From Chaetoderma sp. LZ-2023a (Eukaryota > Mollusca > Caudofoveata > Chaetodermatida > Chaetodermatidae), in assembly GCA_034401795.1 (NCBI GenBank), contig CM067367.1, positions 81,895,843 to 81,959,842 of the forward strand: a stretch of DNA of 64,000 nucleotides. The letters are read 5' to 3'. Both the position numbers and the translations under genes were made by a program. This document shows positions 228-54,654 of this stretch, in pieces. The notes beneath the pieces were generated by a model, which had not been told where the DNA came from, made no database searches, and saw only the letters and a program-made list of their open reading frames with translations. Positions within the stretch are counted from its first letter, which is position 1. Every line of letters starts with the position of its first letter.

Positions 228-544
228 ACCTTAAACCCAAATGGAGTTTCAGATTTCAGTAAAATTTACTACGCTACTGCTGGACAGAACTTCCTCAGAA
301 CTGGCGTAGCTATATGTACCGGTCTCCGTATCTCTACTCCTGCTGACTACAACAATTGAATGTGTATTTCTAAAATAATAAAAGAAATTAATCTGGACAG
401 CCAATAAAATAACATATTGATCAAAGTTGTGGACAATATCATTCTCCAATCTCGGTCTTGTCGCTTTTCATTTCGTAGCGTGCAAGTGTGATAATCAAGT
501 TTGTGATACAATTTACTCGGATTCAGCACACTAAAATTAGGTTA

Positions 545-580
545 ACACACACACGCACGCACGCACGCATGCACGCGTAG
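545..580. repeat. AC/ACGC simple repeat
   Basis: Short (AC)n then (ACGC)n tract that directly abuts the truncated left side of the M1 copy starting at 581. Confidence 0.8.
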
Positions 581-756
581 ATGTTTATTAAATAGTAGAC
601 ATACAATTCGTACAACGTGTCGGACTGTTAAGCGTTAAAGACGGACTATACTGAGTCATTTATGCCATAATTAATTATGACGTCACCCTGCACTCCACTT
701 AGTTTTTGACGACATATGACGGCAGATGACGGATGGGTAAATTTGAAAGGTCCATT
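581..756 (+). mobile_element. M1 MITE, right half only
   Basis: Matches the right half of M1: ATGTTTATTAAATAGT, a run like ACAATTCGTACAACGTGTCG, a TGACGTCA-type site, and the outer end GAAAGGTCCATT. The central palindrome and left half are missing and are replaced at the junction by an ACGC microsatellite. Confidence 0.7.
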
Positions 757-1836
757 CCCGATGCCAAGCCTAGATGGAATACAAGAGGATGTTTTTGCAG
801 CCGTAGAACCATTTCGGAGACAAAACCATATTTTCGTTTGCATTACACGGTAAAATCACCATCGAATAACCATTGGGAATCATCATCTGTGACTACATCT
901 TACTGGTAATAATTCACCCGCTAGCCATGTCCACTATATGATATTCGTTCCAAACATCCCTTCTCTTGCCTGAATCAGCTATGGATGGTATTCATTTTTA
1001 TTCTGTGAAAGATTTCATGGGAAAGAAAGCCATATGCAGTCTGATGTGAACATGAATATCTAAGACAAGGAAATACGTTTAGACAATGTAATATATGAAT
1101 TTAAAATACTATAATTAACAACTTCCATGGCATTCATAGATGAGCAGAACAATGTGCCATTTTAGCTTGTTTCAGGTGGTAAGCATGGTGATAGTGATAA
1201 CCTGACTAATTCCGCCTGGCATATGATGACACCGTGACTGTGTTTTCACAAGACACAAAAATAGCATAAGTGGTGATATTGTAATTCGAGAGGCCAAAGA
1301 TCATGACACGTACTAACTGTCTTTTGATCAGGCTAAGTCGTACTATTGCCAGGACATGCATCAGTTATACCTCACATAGATACAGATTTTGAGACCTTAT
1401 TAATTCGTGGGTGTGTTCATTATACTGGTGAATTCTAGGTAATGCGAATCACCACAAAAACGTTTATTTTTATTAACCATTTAGTTGTACCAGACGTGTC
1501 CAGATTGGTGGCATTGCACAATGCGAGGCTTTATTTAGGTAGCAAATTATTTGTTACGGCAATTTCTAATCATTACTTGGTAAAGCTAGATATAACTGTA
1601 TGAGCATGGCTTAGGTAGCATACCATGTTTTCTGTGGTTTTGCTAACTTAACCAAGTTGTCTTGCAGCTCTACTCAAATCAGATTTAATCATACTGGGAA
1701 AAGGTTGTTTAAATATACGCATCCTTCTTACTGTCTTGTCCACATTCCCTTAGCATCCCAAATCCCAAATTGGTCCATCAGAGAAGATGTACTTGAAAAT
1801 AACAACTTGCTTTCAAATCTGGATGTCAATAATAGG
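757..1836. other. no recognised feature
   Basis: AT-rich sequence without an ORF of convincing length or composition, a recognised repeat or an RNA gene on either strand. Confidence 0.5.
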
Positions 1837-1838
1837 TA

Positions 1839-2072
1839 CAGTACAGCTCAGAAATAACTTAACATGTTTCCAAAACAAAATTAAGCATACTGTTGAATAT
1901 TTTTAACTTGATTGCAGTGGCAGACGTTACTGCCTCGGATAACAGTGACCTATCATCAAATTAAACCCAAAATATTCAACAGAACATTTCTTATATCGTG
2001 TTCAAACTTGTACAACCAACATGTTTCTATTTTTGTATTGGAAACATGTTAGGTTATTTCTGAGCTATACTG
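1839..2072. mobile_element. mariner/Tc1-type palindromic MITE (234 bp)
   Basis: The element starts CAGTACAGCTCAGAAATAAC and ends with its near-perfect inverse, giving about 40-bp terminal inverted repeats. TA dinucleotides lie immediately outside both ends (1837-1838 and 2073-2074). CAGT termini and TA duplications are typical of Tc1/mariner MITEs. The centre (about 1890-1982) is a degenerate version of the CTGTTGAATATTTT palindrome also found in M1. Confidence 0.7.
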
Positions 2073-2097
2073 TACATTACTCTGCAACTCAAGTAGC

Positions 2098-2690
2098 TTG
2101 AAATAGATTATCTTCAAGAGAATAGAACTAGATTTTCTTCAAGAGACGGGAAATAGATTATGTTTAAGAGACTGGAACTAGATTATCTTCAGGAGCCTGG
2201 AAATAGATTATCTTTAAGAGAGAGGAACTAGATTATCTTCAGGAGCCTGGAAATAGATTATCTTCAAGAGACTGGAAATAGATTATCTTCAAGAGACTGA
2301 AAATAAATTATCTTGAAGAGACTGGAACTAGATCATCTTCAAGAGACCGAGACTAGATTATATTCAAGTGACTGGACATAGATTATCGTTAAGAGACTGG
2401 AAATAGATTATCTTTAAGAGACTTGCGCTAGATTATCTTCAAGAGACAGGAACTAGATCATCTTTAAGAGACCGGAACTAGATTATCTTTAAGAGACTGG
2501 AACTAGATTATCTTCACGAGACTGGAACTAGATCATCTTCAAGAGACCGGAACTAGATTATCTGTAAGAGACTGGAAATATATTACCTTCAAGAGACTCG
2601 AACTAGATTATCGCTAAGAGACTGGAAATAGATTATCTTCAAGAGACTGGAACTATATTATCTTCAAGAGACTGGAACTAGATTATCGCT
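2098..2690. repeat. 25-bp minisatellite, about 24 copies
   Basis: Head-to-tail array of a 25-bp unit whose commonest form reads GACTGGAACTAGATTATCTT then CAAGA. Units differ by substitutions (AACTAG versus AAATAG, CTTCAAG versus CTTTAAG) but almost never by length, so the 25-bp register holds across the array. Confidence 0.9.
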
Positions 2691-3552
2691 GGTTCTGTGT
2701 GTAGAAGCGTAAAGCAAGTCGATCACAATGTCGTATTATGGGTCTTGATGTGATCTACGATGCAATATGCGCATCACGCTTTTATTAAGATCATCAGCAC
2801 AATGGAGGACTCCCGATGTAGCTCATTCTCGCAACACCATCGGACCGTACTAAATACGTCGTAATTCATCGTACATTACCTCTGGTAGTTTTCTCCCAGA
2901 AAAGCCCGCGCGCAATCGCAGAAAGTAGTTTTCACTCAGTCAATGAAAATGCACGTTACGGTTTTCGCTCGATTTTGACAGTCATTTGTCATTAACGTAA
3001 ACCCCATACGTAAACCACGAAGGCTATCGTCCCTTCAAAAATTTGCGCGAATTTTATATGCGTTTTCTTCGTCTAATTAACTTTGATCACACTGTAGCAA
3101 CATATATGTTGGAAGATCGTATGGCTCCTGTTCTACTACGCGTTCGTTTGTGTACATCCTGATTTAACAATCGCTTAAGACTGCAAGACACCAATTTTTG
3201 TACTGCAGCTGATGCGGTAATTTGGAATAGTATTTCTCTGAACGCTTCCACCACTGAAATCCTAGTATGTCCATATGAAAGCCCCAACATAATTAAAGGT
3301 AACCCCTTTAGTATTTTGGTAACTACTTTGGCTTGAACTGTTTGGCTTAATTATAGGTAGCAAAGCACATTCCAATCAAATTAGTTTCAAATCACTCAAC
3401 ATAATGTGCTTAAGCTCATACATCATAAATGGTCTGTTGTTGTATCTGGTATGTAGTGGTGAGATTGCTAAAATTAGATCTTTTTATTAAGATCTAAAAC
3501 ATTTAATTGTGTATGCTTAATATTATCAAACAATCATCATATCGAAACACAC
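2691..3552. other. no recognised feature
   Basis: No supported gene. A small hairpin around AGATCTTTTTATTAAGATCT (near 3476-3496) is the only local structure noticed. Confidence 0.45.
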
Positions 3553-3611
3553 ATATATTGAATGGAGATTGCTCCTTTAATTATTGAAACCCACAAAGTG
3601 ACAACTATATA

Positions 3612-5272
3612 TACACCTGTGCAAAAGTTAAGCACCACCCTATTTTTACGCACATGCGAGGGTATATTCATGTGCTATGAAGAAAGCAATAGCATAAACA
3701 TTTATGTACCCATCCATCTTAGTGCAAGAGGTAATAATGCAACTAGAGGAATGCTGATTATGATGGTGGGGAAACACTGTATGTTTTTGTTTGAACTTGA
3801 AAACGAGGCCTGAACATGGTTACGTTGACACAACTGACAACTATTGCCCTACAGTTGACACACGTGGCTAGATTGTCATTAATGGTGTCTGAAAACGAAG
3901 TTTAACATCTGTGCACGAGTTTGAGACTGTCATTATTAATACCGGGTATATCCACCTTGTGCCTGGATGACGGCCTGGACACGACGTCTCATGCTGGTCA
4001 CCAACCGACTGATACGCCATTGTGGTATTCGTTGCCATTCAAGATGGAGTGCGTCTGTTAATTCCTGTAGGTTCTGCACAGGAGGATCCCTCCTTCTCAC
4101 CATGTTTCCCAGAATGTCCCAGATGTGCTCAATAGGGTTCATGTCAGGGCTCCTTGCTGGCCATGGTAGGGTTTCGATGGCATTCTGGCGGAGGTATTCA
4201 TGCACAGCTCTAGCACGATGTGGTCGGGCGTTGTCATCCATGAATATAGGGTGGGTTCCAGGTGCATGATTTACAAAATGAGGGACCACAACTCTATCCA
4301 GTATGGAATCTTGATATCTTTGTCCATTTAGTGTGCCAGGTACAGTCAACAGATCCAGCTTACAATCAAATGAGATGCACCCCCATATCATAACGGAACC
4401 TCCACCAAATGGAACTTCTTCCATGATGTTACGTTGGTCGTACGCCGTGCGTCTGGACCCCCATACACGAGTTCGACCATCTGTGGCATGAAGCAGGAAC
4501 CGACTTTCATCGGACCAGTGTACCCGTCTCCAGGATCTCATGTTCCAGTGTCTTCTTTCGTTGCACCACCTCAGACGCTCCTCTTTGTGGTGTGCAGTGA
4601 GGAGAGGACGTCTGACAGGTATCCTAGCTTTCATGCCAGCAGCATGCAGTCTCCTTTTGACGGTAGACATTGACACTCTATTGCGCGTTTCCCATTGCTG
4701 GCTGAGCACTCTGCTGTTGGTGAATGGAGATCTCCTAACAAGGCGTACTAGGGCTCGATCATCACGGGCAGTAGTCTTCTTCGGTCTTCCAGATCTAGGC
4801 CTGTCCTTCACCTCGTTAGTTTGCCCATGTTTTGCAATCAAACGACTGATTACAGTATGGTTAATGTTCAGCTGTCTGCCAATCTCTCTGCATGACAAAC
4901 CAGTGGTATGCATGCCTATGATTTGCCATTTCACACGATCACTTAACCTTCGTCTTGCCATAGCGGTTCACAATCAAGAGCTAATTCTCTCTGTACAAAT
5001 AAACCACGGTCATGAACACAAAATTCCTAATCTTGTCGCCTAAATCTGTATGTAATGTTCTACACCTCAAACTGGACTTTTACATAACTGAACACGTGTG
5101 CTGTTTCCCGCCACGCACGGACATCAAGCGGCATGAAGTCATGCATGCATGTGCATTTCGTACTTGGAATTATGTCAGCTAACGCGGGGACAAAAAGTAT
5201 GGCAGCCTAGTCGTACCATCATGTTTCTACGTTCTATTGTTTTTGCTGGTGCTTAACTTTTGCACAGGTGTA
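3612..5272 (-). mobile_element. Tc1-like DNA transposon, structurally complete
   Basis: A 1,661-bp element with perfect terminal inverted repeats of about 26 bp beginning TACACCTGTGCAAAAGTTAA, flanked by TA at 3610-3611 and 5273-5274. It holds one intact transposase gene on the minus strand. Removing it and one TA rejoins the E repeat: the flanks GTGACAACTATA and TATGTGTAGTCTCGGACATG match the uninterrupted copy near 5984-6020. TA target choice, length and gene content fit the Tc1 group. Confidence 0.93.
3936..4961 (-). CDS. Tc1-like transposase, DD34E, intact
   Basis: A 341-aa protein that should bind the inverted repeats and catalyse cut-and-paste transposition into TA. Residues about 6-60 form the first helix-turn-helix (SCREIGRQLNINHTVISRL), followed by the linker GRPKKTT, which resembles the AT-hook-like GRPR motif. 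A second helix-turn-helix lies at about 65-115. The catalytic triad is visible: D151 in VHWSDESRF, D243 in FMDDNARPH and E278 in SPDMNPIEHIWD. Exactly 34 residues separate the last two, which is the Tc1 signature. Length is normal for the family, and there is no stop or frameshift. The chosen ATG gives the usual short basic N-terminus before the helix-turn-helix. The gene lies wholly within the inverted repeats, so this copy may be young and possibly active; activity is inferred. Confidence 0.95.
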   Translation of the reverse strand: MARRRLSDRVKWQIIGMHTTGLSCREIGRQLNINHTVISRLIAKHGQTNEVKDRPRSGRPKKTTARDDRALVRLVRRSPFTNSRVLSQQWETRNRVSMSTVKRRLHAAGMKARIPVRRPLLTAHHKEERLRWCNERRHWNMRSWRRVHWSDESRFLLHATDGRTRVWGSRRTAYDQRNIMEEVPFGGGSVMIWGCISFDCKLDLLTVPGTLNGQRYQDSILDRVVVPHFVNHAPGTHPIFMDDNARPHRARAVHEYLRQNAIETLPWPARSPDMNPIEHIWDILGNMVRRRDPPVQNLQELTDALHLEWQRIPQWRISRLVTSMRRRVQAVIQAQGGYTRY

Positions 5273-14441: not shown

Positions 14442-15134
14442 GTGGCGAACAGTATGCAGCAAATATCTGCATGCATTTCATTCACTAATGATGATCTTAA
14501 CCAATATTTGCATGTGGTTGACACTGAGCTATTGAACGATAATGATCATTTTCTAACTGAATATTTAGATAGTGGCATTGTGCCTGCTCTTACTGCCATC
14601 TCGATGGATGCAGATATTATTCAGCAAATATCTGACTGTTTACCACACGCTGATGTACCTTCTTCTAACCAGCCTCAGTACGATGGAGTATTGGATTATA
14701 CAAACTATCTAAATGAGCCTACACAACAAGTGCCTATCTTCGATCAAACAGAATGTCAAATCGTGCAAAGTGTTTCGAACATTACGCATCAAATATCTGC
14801 ACTCATTCCACTCACTAATAATGATCATAATCAATATTTGTTGTGTGATGCCCAGGTTCTTTCGATCAATAATGATCAATTCCTCTTATATAATGGCGTA
14901 GCATATGCTCCTATCCAACCTCATGTAGGTGGCTCTCTGTTCGACTATTCGGACTATTTAACATTGAAGACTATATGTAAGTTCCATAGTAGAAAATATC
15001 ATATTGATGGTACTGAACATAGTGTATCATTTAAGAAATATCCTATTGCTGATTCGCCATTAACTCATTTAGAGTTTATATCAGGCACTGTTCAAACTCT
15101 GCTCGATACGTATAGCACCTATAGATATGTTTAA
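14442..15134 (+). CDS. Polinton leader ORF, internally repetitive, 230 aa
   Basis: Open frame of 230 residues. Residues about 5-42 and 115-150 are two copies of one module (QQISACISFTNDDLNQYL and HQISALIPLTNNDHNQYL). Shorter echoes such as IIQQISDCLPHADVP and repeated DYTNYL/DYSDYL also occur. It is acidic, Asn/Asp/Gln-rich, with no signal peptide or membrane segment visible. The last 60 or so residues (ICKFHSRKYHIDGTEHSVSF to VQTLLDTYS) resemble the extreme N-terminus of Polinton polymerases, so the ORF may be a repeat-bearing N-terminal extension of that gene rather than a separate protein. I do not recognise the repeated module. ORF integrity amid a badly decayed gene is notable, but no function can be assigned. 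Confidence 0.55.
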   Translation: MANSMQQISACISFTNDDLNQYLHVVDTELLNDNDHFLTEYLDSGIVPALTAISMDADIIQQISDCLPHADVPSSNQPQYDGVLDYTNYLNEPTQQVPIFDQTECQIVQSVSNITHQISALIPLTNNDHNQYLLCDAQVLSINNDQFLLYNGVAYAPIQPHVGGSLFDYSDYLTLKTICKFHSRKYHIDGTEHSVSFKKYPIADSPLTHLEFISGTVQTLLDTYSTYRYV

Positions 15135-18100
15135 TCAAATGACCATGTAACAATGGAGATCATTCAATCAGCGTTGGATATGCCTATCATGATGGATTTT
15201 CTGATATAGAATAAAATTACAATGGATCACATTTTGGATTCGATTGAAAAAGTAATTCAGTCAAACACTGAATGCAAGCTATCAGATGGCTTTGAGCTTC
15301 ACGTTTTTCGCATTGAGGACTGCAACTCTGGCAGGTGGCATGATATTCACCATGCTGTGGTCGAGTATAAGTATTTAAATCTGCTAAATATATATTGCGA
15401 TGATAAGGACGAGTACAAGCGCATCGAAAAATGTATTATACCTGTCCATGCCAAATATCCATTCTGTTTCGCAGCTGGTATATATTTAGACATAAAAGTT
15501 ATCGAGAAAACCATCAATCACATCGCTAAACACAAATGGCACAATTTGATACAAAATAAAACATATCAGACGCATATGGCACATGAGTTTTATGCAGCAT
15601 GTTGTATTCCTGAATGCGAGATTAATACTACTGACAGGTCGAAATTTTATCAACATTTCAGCAACGAATTTAGTATCCGAGTCTACTCCGAGTCAACGCA
15701 TGAATGTCTATTCAGTAATGACTCTACTACTACTCAACCATCAATATATCTTTTACATTCGGAATGCAGTAATCACATTTCATTAATAACATCTATCACT
15801 GCATTTCTTATGGTGTGGAATTACTGTCCCCATTGCGATGTATCATAGAGTAATACTCACGATTGCATAGCACTCTGTTGCCGATGTTTCTCTGCTAAAT
15901 CAGCTATTAATGCATGCAATTCTACAGTGACATTGCATATGATAATATGCAATGATTGTCATCATAAGTTTCATAATGGGCAATGTATGAGAAATCATCG
16001 TGCAAATGGGACATGCAAAATCATAAAGGCCTGTCCCCTCTGCTTCGCACATGTACATAAACGTAGTGATGAACACGTATGCGGAATGACTAAATGCCAT
16101 GCATGTAAAGATAAGTGTAATGTTAATGAAGAACATATTTGTTTTCATAAAGTAATTGATGAAACTGCTATGTCATTATCACATGAAAATGGGTGATGAG
16201 GATCTAACGTATGAATCTTACCAAAAATACATCATTTATGATACTGTAACATATTTAGAACCCGTTAACAATACGGACACTAATATTGTCAGTGACCATA
16301 AAGTTAATGGTAGCGAACATATGCTGTGACACCTGCATTTAGCAATCACTAAAACCTAAGTGTGCTACATGTCACTGAGGCATGAATAATGGATATGTTC
16401 GTTTTCATGGGTTAGATGCTATGGATCAGTTTGTTAAATGGTTAACGCACATAAAATCTAAGTGTGTTAAAACATGTCAATCGAAATTATGTTTTCTCTG
16501 ACCACCAGATTATTGCACATAATGTGCATGCATATGATTCACTTTTAATCATTCAATGCATATGCAGGTGCATTAACCTTCTTCTAAAACCATCAAACAT
16601 CATCATGCATGACCGTTCAATTCTCTCATTTCAAATAGGAACAATTCATTTCATCGATTCCATTAACTATTTTCCTCTTTCATTACATAAGGTCGGCAAT
16701 GCTTTTAATCTTCCTGTGCACAACGGAATATTTCCCCATCAGCTGAACTTGCCTCAGTATTTGGGTACAGTAATACCCTTTCCTGAGAGGAGGTATTCGG
16801 TGTGCAAAATATGAAAGGAAATGAACTGCTCCAATTTGATTGATGGGCCAATGAGCTGATATCTAGAGACGCACACTACGATGTCAATAAAAATCCAATT
16901 GAATATTGTAACAATGATGTAACCGTCTTACATTTAGCCATGTCTAGATTTAAGTCCTTAATTTCTGAATCAATGGATGGGATAACGCTAGCAGGTGTTA
17001 TAATGTAGCATATCACACTTTTTGTCTATGCCCTGATAGCAGTCAGACTTTACCCGACTACTCACTAAGAGCAAAACATGCATATAGCATGATCGCTGTT
17101 GAATGGATGGAATGGGTAAGGTTCAGTGATGCTTACCAAATCTTACATGCGCTAAACCAGGGTGAGCAAACGGTTTGTGGGCACTATGTAGATAGCTTAG
17201 CTCCATGCGAAGATATTAGTTTCGAGTTTTGTGGGTGTAAATTTCACAGTCATGAGTCAGATTGCTGTGGCAATAAACGTGAGCAGACATATACACCATA
17301 CGGTGATCAGACATACAAAGAAGTACATTCCGCTCTTCACTATCACATTTCAGTATTTTAATCGCATGGATATATGGTGAGAATTATGTGGGAATACGAG
17401 TTTAAGAAACTAATCGCAAATACCGATGGACTAAATGATTTTATCACTGACTTGAACTTGTGATGTGATGCACTATTTGGTGGGCACACATCCGCAATTC
17501 TATTATTTCTGGAAGTGGATGAACATACTAAGCTAGTATATTTAGACTTCATTTCCATGTACCCATCAGTGATGAAACAATGTCGTTTTCCAGAAGGTAC
17601 ATACGAGGTAGTAAGAGACGAGGATTTGAAGACAGTGCATGACTTCTTTGGTCTTATTAAATTCAAAGTCCTCCCTCCTCTTGATTTATACTTTCCTGTA
17701 TTACCTACTAGAATAAGTAAGCGGCTCGTGTTTGGACTATTTGCCGAATGCGCAAGAATCTGTCAATCTACCATAAATGAATAATTATGCAGAAAACCAA
17801 TGTTCCTTATGTGAGATTTGGACCACTCCTGAGCTACAGTTAGCTATTCACCATGGTTATATCATTAAAAAGATGTACGAAGTCTGGCATTATCCTGAGT
17901 CATCACAATATGAACAACATGGTGATAAGGAACTATTTTCTGAATACATTACCCGCTTCCTCAAAATTAAGCAGGAAAGTAGTGGGTAAACAGACTGGGT
18001 TTGTAGTGAAAGCAATAAAGAGTGCTATATACAAGAGTACAATGTGTATGAGGCTATACAACTTGACCCAGCGAAAATATCAAATAATCCGGCTTTAAGT

Positions 18101-49864: not shown

Positions 49865-49979
49865 TGTCCCACAGTCGCAAAAATACAGGTATATTGTTGA
49901 CTACTTTAAAAGTAATTTAACGGGAACATGTTGCTATCATAGGAAGCAACAGCGCCCAAGTCAAAGTAATTTCAAATTA
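49865..49979 (+). mobile_element. M1 MITE, interrupted by the XPG transposon
   Basis: CAGTCGCAAAAATACAGGTA, core arms TATTGTTGACTACTTTAAAA and AAGTCAAAGTAATTTCAAAT. The sequence stops at ...TTCAAATTA and resumes at 54652 as TTACTCAACAACATAATTTA, which matches the expected continuation of M1 (TATTCAACA-ATGTTTATTAAA). Confidence 0.7.
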
Positions 49980-52900
49980 TAGTCCAGGAGCTAAAGCTAG
50001 GTCTGAATCGTGACGTAGCACACCCAGTATTCGGAAGGTCTGACACTTGCTGTGGCTTGGGGGACATGTCCCACACATTTTAAGCCCTGTTGTACAAACA
50101 AATTGTGGTAGCACTAATTAGTTATCCTGATTTCTTTGCATAGGGGGTCTAGGCTTTGGCTGTATCCACAGTGCACAACGACATAAGCATGATCGTGTCA
50201 TAACTCAAAGTAATATCGTATTAGATTCACCATATATGATATTTAGACGGATATCGATCTAACATATATCCAACATACATTTTGCATGCATATACCAAAG
50301 ACGAGGGTGAAATGTGAAGGTTATATTTTATGTATGTATAGTAACTCCATCATAGAATCTGTATATCCAGCTGTACCACTGTTGACAAAGCAAAGGAAAT
50401 TATTCCCCAAAGCCTTTACTGGCTGCTGCGGTGGGTTACCACGAATGCAGATTTAGCACCAGAGCAGTTTGGTAATGTTAGATCAGAATGTGCTAATGAA
50501 GGTGATGAGAGGCATGTAATGATGATATGCCAAGACATAGCGCATTGTGTATCACACGGGAGAAAGAAAATGCCAAAACACATAAGCCTCGCTATGACAA
50601 TGAGGCATCTTACAGGTTCCAAACAAGTTGTCACCATTCTGAATCGTATGGGTCATAGCGTTTGCTATGATGATATTGAGGTAGTTGACACTAGTATGGC
50701 GCTTGAAGTATTAGCTCAATCAACACGGTATGGAGTTGTAATACCAACAAACATTGATCCAAACTCGTTCGTTCAAGTAGCAGCTGATAACAATGATATA
50801 CTTGAAGAAACCTTAGACGGTAAACAGACAACTCACTCAACGACAATGGTGATTTTCCAACGAATGCAATTTGGCCCAAGACCAGAGCGTGTCATACATG
50901 CTGAACACTCAGTCAGGAGAAGGGCTTTGACAGCACCAGGTACTGAAAACAGAATTCTTGATTGTGGGGTGCTTGGTAGAAGACCAGATGTGACCGCGTT
51001 CATAGACACTGTCAAGAAGGATTGGTACCAATGTGATAGCTCAATCCAGGAACAGGCATTAGTCATGGATCTTGCATGGGCCATCGTTCGAATGTGTCCA
51101 ATAAAATTGTTTGCGGTAGATCTTGTACCCATGATGACCACAGAAACACAAACAGTCCCTAGTTGGAGTGGATTTAATGCACTTGTATCATGTGCTAACG
51201 CACCTTTTACACAAATCGGTTACTGTCCAATGATTTCCGGATCACCAACTGAATTCAATACGGTGTATACGGTCATGAAACAAGTTCAAAGAATGATGAC
51301 AACACTAGGACAGAATGACTCGGTCATTACATTCGAACTTGGCCATATATGTCAAGGCAAAGGAGATACAGTGGCGATATAAAGAAGAGTTTAGTGACAC
51401 TGTGATCAGACTGGGGGGATTCCACATTGCGCTAAACTACCTAGCTGTTATTGGAAAGATGTTTGATGACTCTGGCTTAGAAGATCTCCTCATAGAGGCC
51501 AACACATATGGTAGCAGCACGGCTGCTGCTCTACTTAAAGGGAAGTCATATAATCGAGGAGTGAGGGCTCACAAATTGGTTATGGAAGCGCTGCTGCGAT
51601 TACAATGGCAGTCTTTTTCCACATGGGTTCAACAAAATGGACAACATGAAGACCATATTACTCCAACAGAATTGGAGAGTCTGGATGAGAAAATTAAGAT
51701 TTGCCGAAGCAGCATTGACGACTTAGACGCACTACAAGAAAATTTCAAAGAGGTGTGTATGTACGTGAATACATTGCAACAGCTGTTCAAATCCTTTAAA
51801 GTTGAGTCAAGCTCGAAATCACACCTGTCCGCATTTTGGAACTCATATATTCATATGGTAGAGCTGCTGCTTGGATTCATAAGAGCTGAGAGAACTGGAG
51901 ATTGGCAGGCACACCTATCAGCTACTGCTGCTATGGCGCCATATTTCTACAGCATGGACAGAACCAATTATGCAAGATGGCTGCCAATATATCTTGCGGA
52001 CATGAAGATGCTTCCAAGTACACATCCCCATGTACATGAACAATTCTTGAATGGAAATCATTCCGTAAGTCGCCCAGACCATCCATTCAATCAAGTGTGG
52101 ACAGATATGGCCTTAGAGCAATCGATTAATTTGGATTCCAAAAAGCGAAGTGGTTTTATTGGAATAACACAAAAGCCAGGAGCTCTGGAGAGGTGGTTTT
52201 TAACTAGCCACGAGAGGGCAGCCATAACAACGGTCACAAAGCAAATGTGTGGGTTACAAGATAGTCACATGTTTGGAGTACATAAGGAAATGGGGACTAA
52301 TCGAATGAACAGGGATGAAACCGATATGCAAAAGATACTTTCGATGTTCTCATCAGATATAATGACCAATCCCTTTAATATTGCGGAAAACGAGGACAGC
52401 GAGTGTCTTCCTCTTGTAAACATTGTAACTGGCGTGGTATTGCCTAGTGAAATCGCCAAGAGACTTGTTTCCGCCTGTGACATTGGTAAGGAGATTATGG
52501 AAAATTGTGTTCACGAGCGGCTGGACACTAACACGAGAAGCTTTTGGGACACGTTGCCACACTTAATACTTAAAACATTTGCCAGCCTAGTACAGAAGAA
52601 AAAACTCAAAACTAATGATGAAAAAATTCACAATGTGAGATCTGACCGCGAACTATTTGGTCGATTATTTATTGCCGCAAGGTCCAGAGATGTTGATTTA
52701 AAACTAGTGATGACGTATGAACTGTCTGCTATTCCACTATCATTGTCACATACGGATGGGACTCTAAGAAAGAATGTGAAAAGTGTTTTGTTAAGTGAAC
52801 TAGAAAAGGAAGTAAATGTTGATGGATGGCTTCCACCTGTTGACAAGACAGGCGCAACAGCTTATGTAGTAGATGGCATGGCAATTGTGCAAATGGTTAA

Positions 52901-54651
52901 AACTGGAGGTACGTCTACATTTGGAGAATTGGCTGATAAATACTGGCACATCTTTACAGTTCCACTGAATCAAGAAGACTGCAACAGAGTAGATATAGTT
53001 TTTGACAGATATGATAGACTGGAATCTCTCAAAGCGGAAGAGCGGCTAAAACGTGGGTCATCAACAGCATTGGAAGTAAAGATTGCTGGAGAAAATACTC
53101 CCGTTCCAAAGCAATGGGCCAAGTACATCAGCAATCCAAGCAACAAAAGTAACCTGGTTGCATTTCTCAGCAAGCGGTGGCGTGATACTGGTCCAAATAT
53201 GCTATCTGCCGACAATTGCGTCATTCTTGCTGGTGGCTTTAATGATGGAATGGATGTTGTTGTCATTTCAGCGAACAATTCGTCGTATTTGGAAGAACTT
53301 CGATCAGATCACGAGGAAGCAGATACGCGTATGATGTTACACGCGCTACACGCTTCAAAAGACCACATGTGTGTTGTTATACAGTCTCCTGATACAGACG
53401 TGGCAGTACTTAGTATATATACGTATCGTTCGCTTCACTGTTCTGAACTATGGTTCCGTACGGGCACAAAGGACAAATTGCGATACATACCAATACATAC
53501 AGTTGCTCAAGTACTGGGCCCAGCTATCTGTCTGTCTTTGCCTGGGTTTCATTCTCGTACAGGTTGTGATAGCACTAGTGCATTATTTGGAGTCGCTAAG
53601 AGAAAAGCATTCAATCTCTTAAAGTCATCTGAATGTCATCAGCTTAGCTTAGCCCAACTCGGCGAACATGTTGACTTATCACCGAATACTGCAATTCTAT
53701 GTGAGAAATTTGTCTGTGAGTTGTATACCACCAGGGATGTGGGAAAGACAGCTGATGAAACCCGTTATTGGCTCTTTTGTCAAAAGAGACGAAGAAATGA
53801 AAATCTTTCACCTACATCGAATAGTCTAAAGCAACACACCGAAAGGGCCAATTTTCAAGCTCTTGTTTGGAGACGTTCATTGCAAGCTGTTCAGAATCTT
53901 CCATCTCCAAATGGACATGGCTGGAGTATAGTGGATGGTCTACTCAAGCCTGTTCTAATGTCAAAGGATCCTGCTCCATTTGGATTAATTGAACTCACAT
54001 CATGTAGATGTCAAAAGTCTGCCTGCAAAAGAACAGATCTCTGTCAATGCAAGGCTAACAATCTACTCTGCACTGAAGCATGCCTTTGTATGGGAGGTGA
54101 AATGTGTGACAATGTTCAGCATACAATTGTCGAAGATGACTCTGACACGGATGAGTAACATTCTCTCATTTGCTCACGTGATAAATATGTCCTGCCAGCT
54201 TGTGTAGACATGCACTGCATGTCAGTTAAAAATTTAATTATGAAAAATGTAGAAAACATGGGCATTGTTGTAGCTAAGGTATTGCTAGTCACAAGAAGAC
54301 CTAAGTGCCCCAATATGTACAAAGCAACATACGGGTCTTAGACGAGGTTGATTATGTATAAATCTGCGATATACGATCACTCCTTTCCATTTTGGTTAAG
54401 ATTGTATTGATATAACATGTGCTTAAGTTTGTGAAAAATTTAGCATTGTGAAAATTGTTTGAGAGCTACATTCTACACCTATTGTAAATGGGCTTCTCAC
54501 GGGTTAGTGATACCACAATTTTCTTGTACAACACGGCTCAGAATATACCCAAGACATCGGTCTAGCATAATATAGAGACACACCTTCCGAATACTGGGTG
54601 TGCTACGAAACCATTCTTCTAGACCCCTTTTGAAAATTGGCTCCCGGACTA
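49980..54651 (+). mobile_element. XPG-nuclease DNA transposon, 4,672 bp, both ends intact
   Basis: Termini TAGTCC and GGACTA are inverse, and the terminal repeats continue inward with GTCC(A/G)GGAGC(T/C)AA and then a perfect 26-bp block starting CGTAGCACACCCAGTATTCG (50014-50039; inverse at 54582-54607). A further looser match, TTGTACAA-AAATTGTGGTA-CACTA, lies about 80-100 bp inside. TTA flanks both ends (49977-49979 and 54652-54654), and removal of the element and one TTA restores an M1 MITE. The only gene inside is the long XPG/CXC protein. Three-bp duplications plus an XPG-type nuclease recall the Academ superfamily, but that assignment is a hypothesis. Confidence 0.8.
50345..54158 (+). 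CDS. transposon protein: candidate DDE-like N-part, FEN1/XPG-type nuclease, CXC domain
   Basis: One intronless coding region split by a single frameshift near 51335. The first part is open from 50345, with its first ATG at 50519, giving 287 residues. It has conserved-looking text before that ATG (SLYWLLRWVTT), so the true start may lie upstream or in a lost or spliced exon. It includes VQVAADNNDILEETLDG. The second part (51315-54158) is 947 residues. In its numbering, GGFHIALNYLAVIG and GFIRAERTGDWQAH come first; these with AADNND might hold acidic transposase residues. The nuclease follows: VVDGMAI (D520), IVFDRYD (D564), DHEEADTRM (E667, E668, D670), SPDTDVAVL (D693, D695) and TGCDSTSALFGVAKRKAF (D752). 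This matches the acidic set and helix-two-turn-helix order of FEN1/XPG enzymes. A tesmin/TSO1-like CXC cluster lies at 897-932. The nuclease call is well supported by motif order; the transposase role is inferred. Confidence 0.8.
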
Positions 54652-54654
54652 TTA

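Follow-up and report, generated by a model that had tools for sequence, protein, structure and literature searches.

Which kind of mobile element occupies positions 49980 to 54651 of a 64,000-nucleotide stretch of DNA from Chaetoderma sp. LZ-2023a (the window), and which part of its protein would move it? An initial annotation, made from the letters of the window, had described this segment as a complete-ended transposon encoding a FEN1/XPG-type nuclease with a CXC cluster. Our analysis leads us to conclude, with a probability of about 80%, that it belongs to an invertebrate family of cut-and-paste DNA transposons of Academ type (AcademX-like), of which it is a defective and non-autonomous member.

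The element has exact ends and a 3-bp target-site duplication

The segment is a single insertion. The inverse termini TAGTCC and GGACTA described in the initial annotation were found exactly in place, the first base of TAGTCC being 49980 and the last base of GGACTA 54651, and TTA indeed stands on both flanks. BLAST within the window aligned 50005-50117 with 54504-54616 at 73% identity over 113 bp (E ~1e-12), and the perfect 26-bp block can be read off the two arms, which confirms the long inverted repeats. The boundaries are as follows (TSD, target-site duplication).

49980..54651 (+): full extent of the transposon copy, 4,672 bp, derived by internal deletion from a ~6,165-bp element
49977..49979 (unstranded): TSD left copy, TTA, 3 bp
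54652..54654 (unstranded): TSD right copy, TTA, 3 bp
49980..50117 (unstranded): left end, with the terminal TAGTCC and an imperfect terminal inverted repeat that contains the perfect 26-bp block
54504..54651 (unstranded): right end, inverted repeat terminating in GGACTA

The host genome (2.44 Gb, 2,753 contigs) was then searched with the DNA of the element. Among 1,990 first-look candidates 34 copies were scored, ranked by similarity to the window copy, which is itself one of them, and all 34 were read with their flanks. Their main matches showed 98-100% identity, and the 33 copies other than the full-length copy L011 are 98.1-99.1% identical to it. The initial annotation had proposed looking for further copies with the same ends and consistent short duplications; such copies exist, and 29 of the 34 carry an exact 3-bp duplication at the TAG/CTA boundary. 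A 4-bp duplication was seen in none of the 34, nor was any of 4-8 bp, and 9 bp was tested with none listed. As a control, five shifted offsets gave a 3-bp duplication in 0 or 1 of 34 copies. The five copies without an exact 3-bp duplication are L013 (TAT/TTA), L037, L039, L040 and L041, the last two having degraded left ends and identical right flanks. The duplications are 86% A+T, compared to 58% in the flanks, and the commonest is TTA (7/29).

To offset the ranking by similarity, the first six plus-strand left ends on host contig C1 were also taken from the pattern list. The right end lay within the fetched stretch for three, all with an exact 3-bp duplication; in the remaining three, the stretch showed no right end. 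If one mismatch at most is allowed, the genome contains 1,465 matches (747 + 718) to the 18-base left end, compared to 0 for the reversed control. Both the end matches and the 3-bp duplications far exceed chance, the element is abundant in its animal host, and the family has multiplied there recently.

An empty-site test with the joined flanks of copy L023 only was uninformative either way, since the matches were its own two flanks or else another repeat starting at the duplication. The right flank of L023, and by eye also flanks of L001, L011 and L015, appear to belong to a further repeat, one end of which begins at the TTA duplication (GTTGTTGC.../...GCAACAGC). This repeat, adjoining several insertions at TTA, may be a nested-insertion hot spot.

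The window copy has lost part of its interior and its reading frame

The description "complete-ended" holds for both ends, but the interior has lost ~1.5 kb and the frame is broken, both of which the initial annotation missed. Positions 1-413 and 408-4672 of the window element align to 1-413 and 1900-6165 of L011, and compared to full-length copies the deletion removes ~365 residues from the start of the protein. A coding region is present between the repeats, as had been noted, but not a single long one: two open reading frames (ORFs), at ~50387-51361 and 51315-54158, overlap out of frame, with the break at ~51330-51360, at the second predicted catalytic Asp. Counted as coding pieces, the first runs to ~51361 and the second covers 51336-54158. 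We read the window copy as defective and non-autonomous.

50387..50392 (unstranded): internal-deletion junction; full-length ~414-1899 absent, six bases common to both sides
50387..51361 (+): remaining N-terminal part of the protein frame, matching residues ~370-691 of the relative P0006; first predicted catalytic Asp, codon 50786-50788
51315..54158 (+): 947-codon ORF with the rest of the predicted DDE domain, the FEN1/XPG/EXO1-type nuclease and the CXC-like domain

Three of the 34 copies are full-length (L009-L011; 6,165-6,166 bp), and the other 31 are shortened by internal deletions in the 5' half, whose junctions often share a few bases. Within some groups of copies (L020, L025, L027, L028, L032, L034 and L036; L024, L029-L031 and L037; L033 and L035) a deletion junction is shared, at ~229/2389, 240/2400 or 332/2416 in full-length coordinates, while the insertion sites differ, as if single deletion derivatives had themselves multiplied.

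When the genome was searched with the protein, 29 of 26,873 candidates were scored; 13 cover all 1,621 codons and 4 of these 13 are stop-free. Around residues 373-387 the frame of L011, compared by eye with the alignment, briefly differs from that of its relatives, and the frame of L010, the third full-length copy read, is broken. An open frame alone does not show that a copy is functional. Compared with L011, the copies show 455 non-synonymous (including stops) and 129 synonymous differences seen in a single copy, and 74 and 28, counted likewise, seen in two or more, the expected ratio being 2.9:1. Because these ratios are about neutral, coding constraint is visible only between families and species.

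These data bear on whether the copies could instead be a family of host nuclease genes, domesticated or multicopy, whose repeat-like flanks are accidental. The protein is large and conserved and is annotated as a gene in several animals, as such a family would be. Against this stand the precise ends, the deletion derivatives, the near-neutral ratios among copies and, above all, 3-bp duplications made separately by each copy at different sites, which contradict it; we rejected this explanation and give it next to no probability.

The protein combines a probable DDE transposase with a FEN1/XPG/EXO1-type nuclease

Full-length members (~6.17 kb) encode one protein of ~1,621 residues, laid out from N to C terminus as zinc-finger-like motifs (by eye), a predicted DDE domain, a FEN1/XPG/EXO1-type nuclease and a CXC-like domain. 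A protein search scored 7,991 candidates, of which 234 were relatives at E<=0.001; 120 of these are listed. From these 120 we hand-picked, for length and spread, 48 to align with the window protein (A1) and 38 for an alignment of the N-terminal half (A2).

52104..52118 (+): DMALE motif, in which Asp (52104-52106) is invariant and Glu (52116-52118) is the predicted third catalytic residue
52776..53907 (+): FEN1/XPG/EXO1-type nuclease domain, approximate, by linear mapping of model residues 690-1067 of the closest relative, P0001
54000..54113 (+): cysteine-rich CXC (Tesmin/TSO1-like) domain, under the Pfam cut-off

The acidic motif order of FEN1/XPG nucleases, followed by a cysteine-rich C-terminus, is present as first described and conserved in the aligned relatives. 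Structure prediction, suggested at the outset as a check for an XPG fold, gave a strong match to the FEN1/XPG/EXO1 fold. The model shows features of that superfamily, a predicted H3TH-type motif and a putative metal-binding set of acidic residues; the nuclease-type acidic positions are conserved in the alignment, together with a GCD...GxGK motif, and we take them, by motif order rather than superposition, to be the probable FEN1 metal sites. Searches by sequence were less telling: Pfam, phmmer against PDB and profiles against PDB gave only sub-threshold or unrelated matches for the nuclease and CXC regions, EXO1 being matched by the profile at E 0.74, and Foldseek alone gave no match at E<=0.001 for the nuclease or the DDE model. 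Pfam scans of 13 sequences (2 window ORFs, and 5 and 6 proteins; E limits 5, 1 and 0.1) listed neither the XPG family nor a helicase family. Nine cysteines of the CXC region are kept in 45 of 49 aligned rows; it scored 13.3-18.7 bits with Pfam TCR (cut-off 23.5) and matched a LIN54 profile at E 0.06.

Three acidic positions of the N-terminal half are near-invariant in the alignment (37/38, 38/38 and 37/38). The modelled half has an RNase-H-like scaffold with a helical insertion, and its best structural matches are DDE recombinases, at low Z. It also matches Pfam DUF6589, with 31.4 bits in relative P0095 against a curated cut-off of 27, while the window family scored 16.4 and 18.6 bits. Support from the predicted structures is strong for the nuclease fold and weak for the DDE fold; taken together, the N-terminal half probably carries a DDE transposase domain.

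Could the FEN1/XPG-type nuclease be the transposase itself, with the N-terminal half merely binding DNA? The strong fold match and a conserved acidic set do belong to the nuclease. But the near-invariant acids and the recombinase-like scaffold lie in the N-terminal half, and constant-length duplications around inverted repeats are usually the product of DDE strand transfer. We therefore rejected the nuclease as sole transposase, a reading we hold to be very unlikely. The nuclease probably assists a DDE transposase that forms part of its own polypeptide; the initial annotation had missed this.

The family resembles AcademX

The Academ superfamily and its AcademX lineage reportedly go back to Kapitonov and Jurka 2010 and Kojima 2020. 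A CXC-like domain, described as a 'Cys8 zinc finger', may be standard in Academ. AcademX nucleases are of XPG type, and here too the element encodes a nuclease and not a helicase.

According to two papers, Academ is one of 17 DDE/D superfamilies and has amplified in bivalves, where curated elements average 5,565 bp (PMC10294476), and AcademX makes duplications of 3 or 4 bp and AcademH of 9 or 10 bp, a difference tied to nuclease and helicase (Kojima 2023, PMC10045372). The present family is likewise a large nuclease-bearing element with long inverted repeats, its duplication length falls within the AcademX range (PMC10045372), and its 6,165 bp is near the bivalve mean (PMC10294476); it differs from AcademX in showing no 4-bp duplications. 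The original "Academ-like" reading is thereby supported. AcademH belongs to the same named superfamily in the literature, but it pairs a helicase with the longer duplications (PMC10045372), and we rejected membership in it, as duplications here are 3 bp and no helicase was listed by Pfam. We infer Academ membership from features, set against descriptions of Academ rather than its sequences. The kind appears to be already known, making this a well-documented new member and not a surprise.

An undescribed superfamily, a lineage with DDE transposase, FEN1-type nuclease and CXC domain resembling Academ in layout and duplication length yet unrelated at superfamily level, would fit a comparison made by description with no reference sequence, and none of the 120 listed relatives bears the name Academ. 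The source labels are unreviewed and mostly missing, so this absence says little, whereas a nuclease with a 3-bp duplication is a published AcademX combination (PMC10045372), and amplification in bivalves at a similar length is described for Academ (PMC10294476). Such a superfamily is not needed to explain the data, and we consider it improbable.

The best structural matches of the N-terminal half are the DDE recombinases of hAT (Hermes), Transib/RAG1 and IS256/MULE-type (ISCth4) elements. In these, as in our model, a large helical insertion precedes the last catalytic residue of an RNase-H-like core; PDB sequence searches turned up no similarity to them. Hermes-type elements duplicate 8 bp and Transib 5 bp, compared to 3 bp here, and none of the three is known to carry a fused nuclease. 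Membership in hAT was rejected, with an 8-bp duplication in 0/34 copies. FEN1, XPG, EXO1 and GEN1 resemble the present nuclease in fold, acidic positions and GCD...GxGK motif, but are too distant in sequence for a significant match, and here the nuclease forms one polypeptide of a transposon together with a probable transposase. In the limited literature collection searched, we found no pertinent paper on Academ with an XPG nuclease or transposase, only unrelated-looking ones on the CXC/transposase/XPG/FEN1 combination, and none on DUF6589.

Relatives occur in other animals and a second family in the host

The initial annotation had supposed that relatives might be annotated merely as uncharacterised, and this is supported: for proteins of corals, anemones, lancelets and echinoderms, nearly all existing labels read hypothetical, unnamed, uncharacterized, predicted or "Tesmin/TSO1-like CXC", most listed rows being nameless. 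Named sources include Branchiostoma, Actinostola, Exaiptasia, Nematostella, Porites, Oculina, Holothuria, Patiria, Strongylocentrotus, Apostichopus and Anneissia, and many full-length relatives have ~1,600 residues.

Two listed relatives bear the names of bacterial bins, Sedimenticola and Thiodiazotropha. Pieces of the family occur in bacterial genome bins (Planctomycetota, a mussel symbiont, Sedimenticola and Thiodiazotropha; contigs of L042 and L043, proteins P0042 and P0098), which suggests that animal host DNA contaminates public bacterial genomes. Scans for related loci with a single protein as query found none in genome or viral contigs; with the alignment as query, two contigs were found. 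L042 has no usable ends, as its contig begins inside the gene. A relative of 34% identity, with ends TAGTAGGG...CCCTACTA, long inverted repeats and TTA at either flank, lies on a contig filed under the name of a Bathymodiolus symbiont.

With the Patiria relative P0108 as query (28 scored of 22,465 candidates), a second, distant family was found in the host. Its ends are TAGGCC...GGCCTA. Three copies were read; two of them have duplications, CTA and GAT, and the stretch read for the third did not include its right end. This family (L050-L055, host contigs C5 and C15) is ~7.7 kb long, with stop-free 1,420-codon frames in seven listed places. TAG...CTA ends with a 3-bp duplication thus recur in three families.

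Elsewhere in the window, 3936-4961 (-) holds a 341-codon Tc1/mariner-type transposase ORF with Pfam HTH_Tnp_Tc3_2 and DDE_3 above cut-off, and 14442-15848 (+) holds ORFs of 230 and 208 codons with no Pfam match at E<=0.01.

A possible mechanism and its implications

Most likely, the DDE domain would cut at the TAG/CTA ends and join them to a 3-bp staggered, A+T-rich target, where gap filling would leave the duplication. The zinc-finger-like and CXC regions may bind the inverted repeats, and the nuclease would probably act on what excision or joining leaves behind, such as hairpins, flaps or recessed 5' ends, a role that its predicted EXO1/FEN1-like fold fits without proving it. Internal deletion, plausibly when the gap repair that follows excision was interrupted, could have produced copies like that of the window, and protein from full-length copies could have spread them in trans. 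Tentatively, and with some doubt, a single polypeptide might permanently unite a hAT/RAG-like DDE transposase, a FEN1/EXO1-class nuclease and a CXC domain that binds DNA, and so itself process intermediates otherwise left to host repair.

The recently multiplied family offers full-length and deletion-derived copies within one genome, and the predicted layout locates both the probable transposase, in the half that the initial annotation left unidentified, and the nearest resemblance of the nuclease. The role of a flap-type nuclease in a cut-and-paste transposon thereby becomes testable. Our data also suggest that "uncharacterized" or "CXC domain" proteins of corals, anemones, lancelets and echinoderms derive from, or are related to, transposons.
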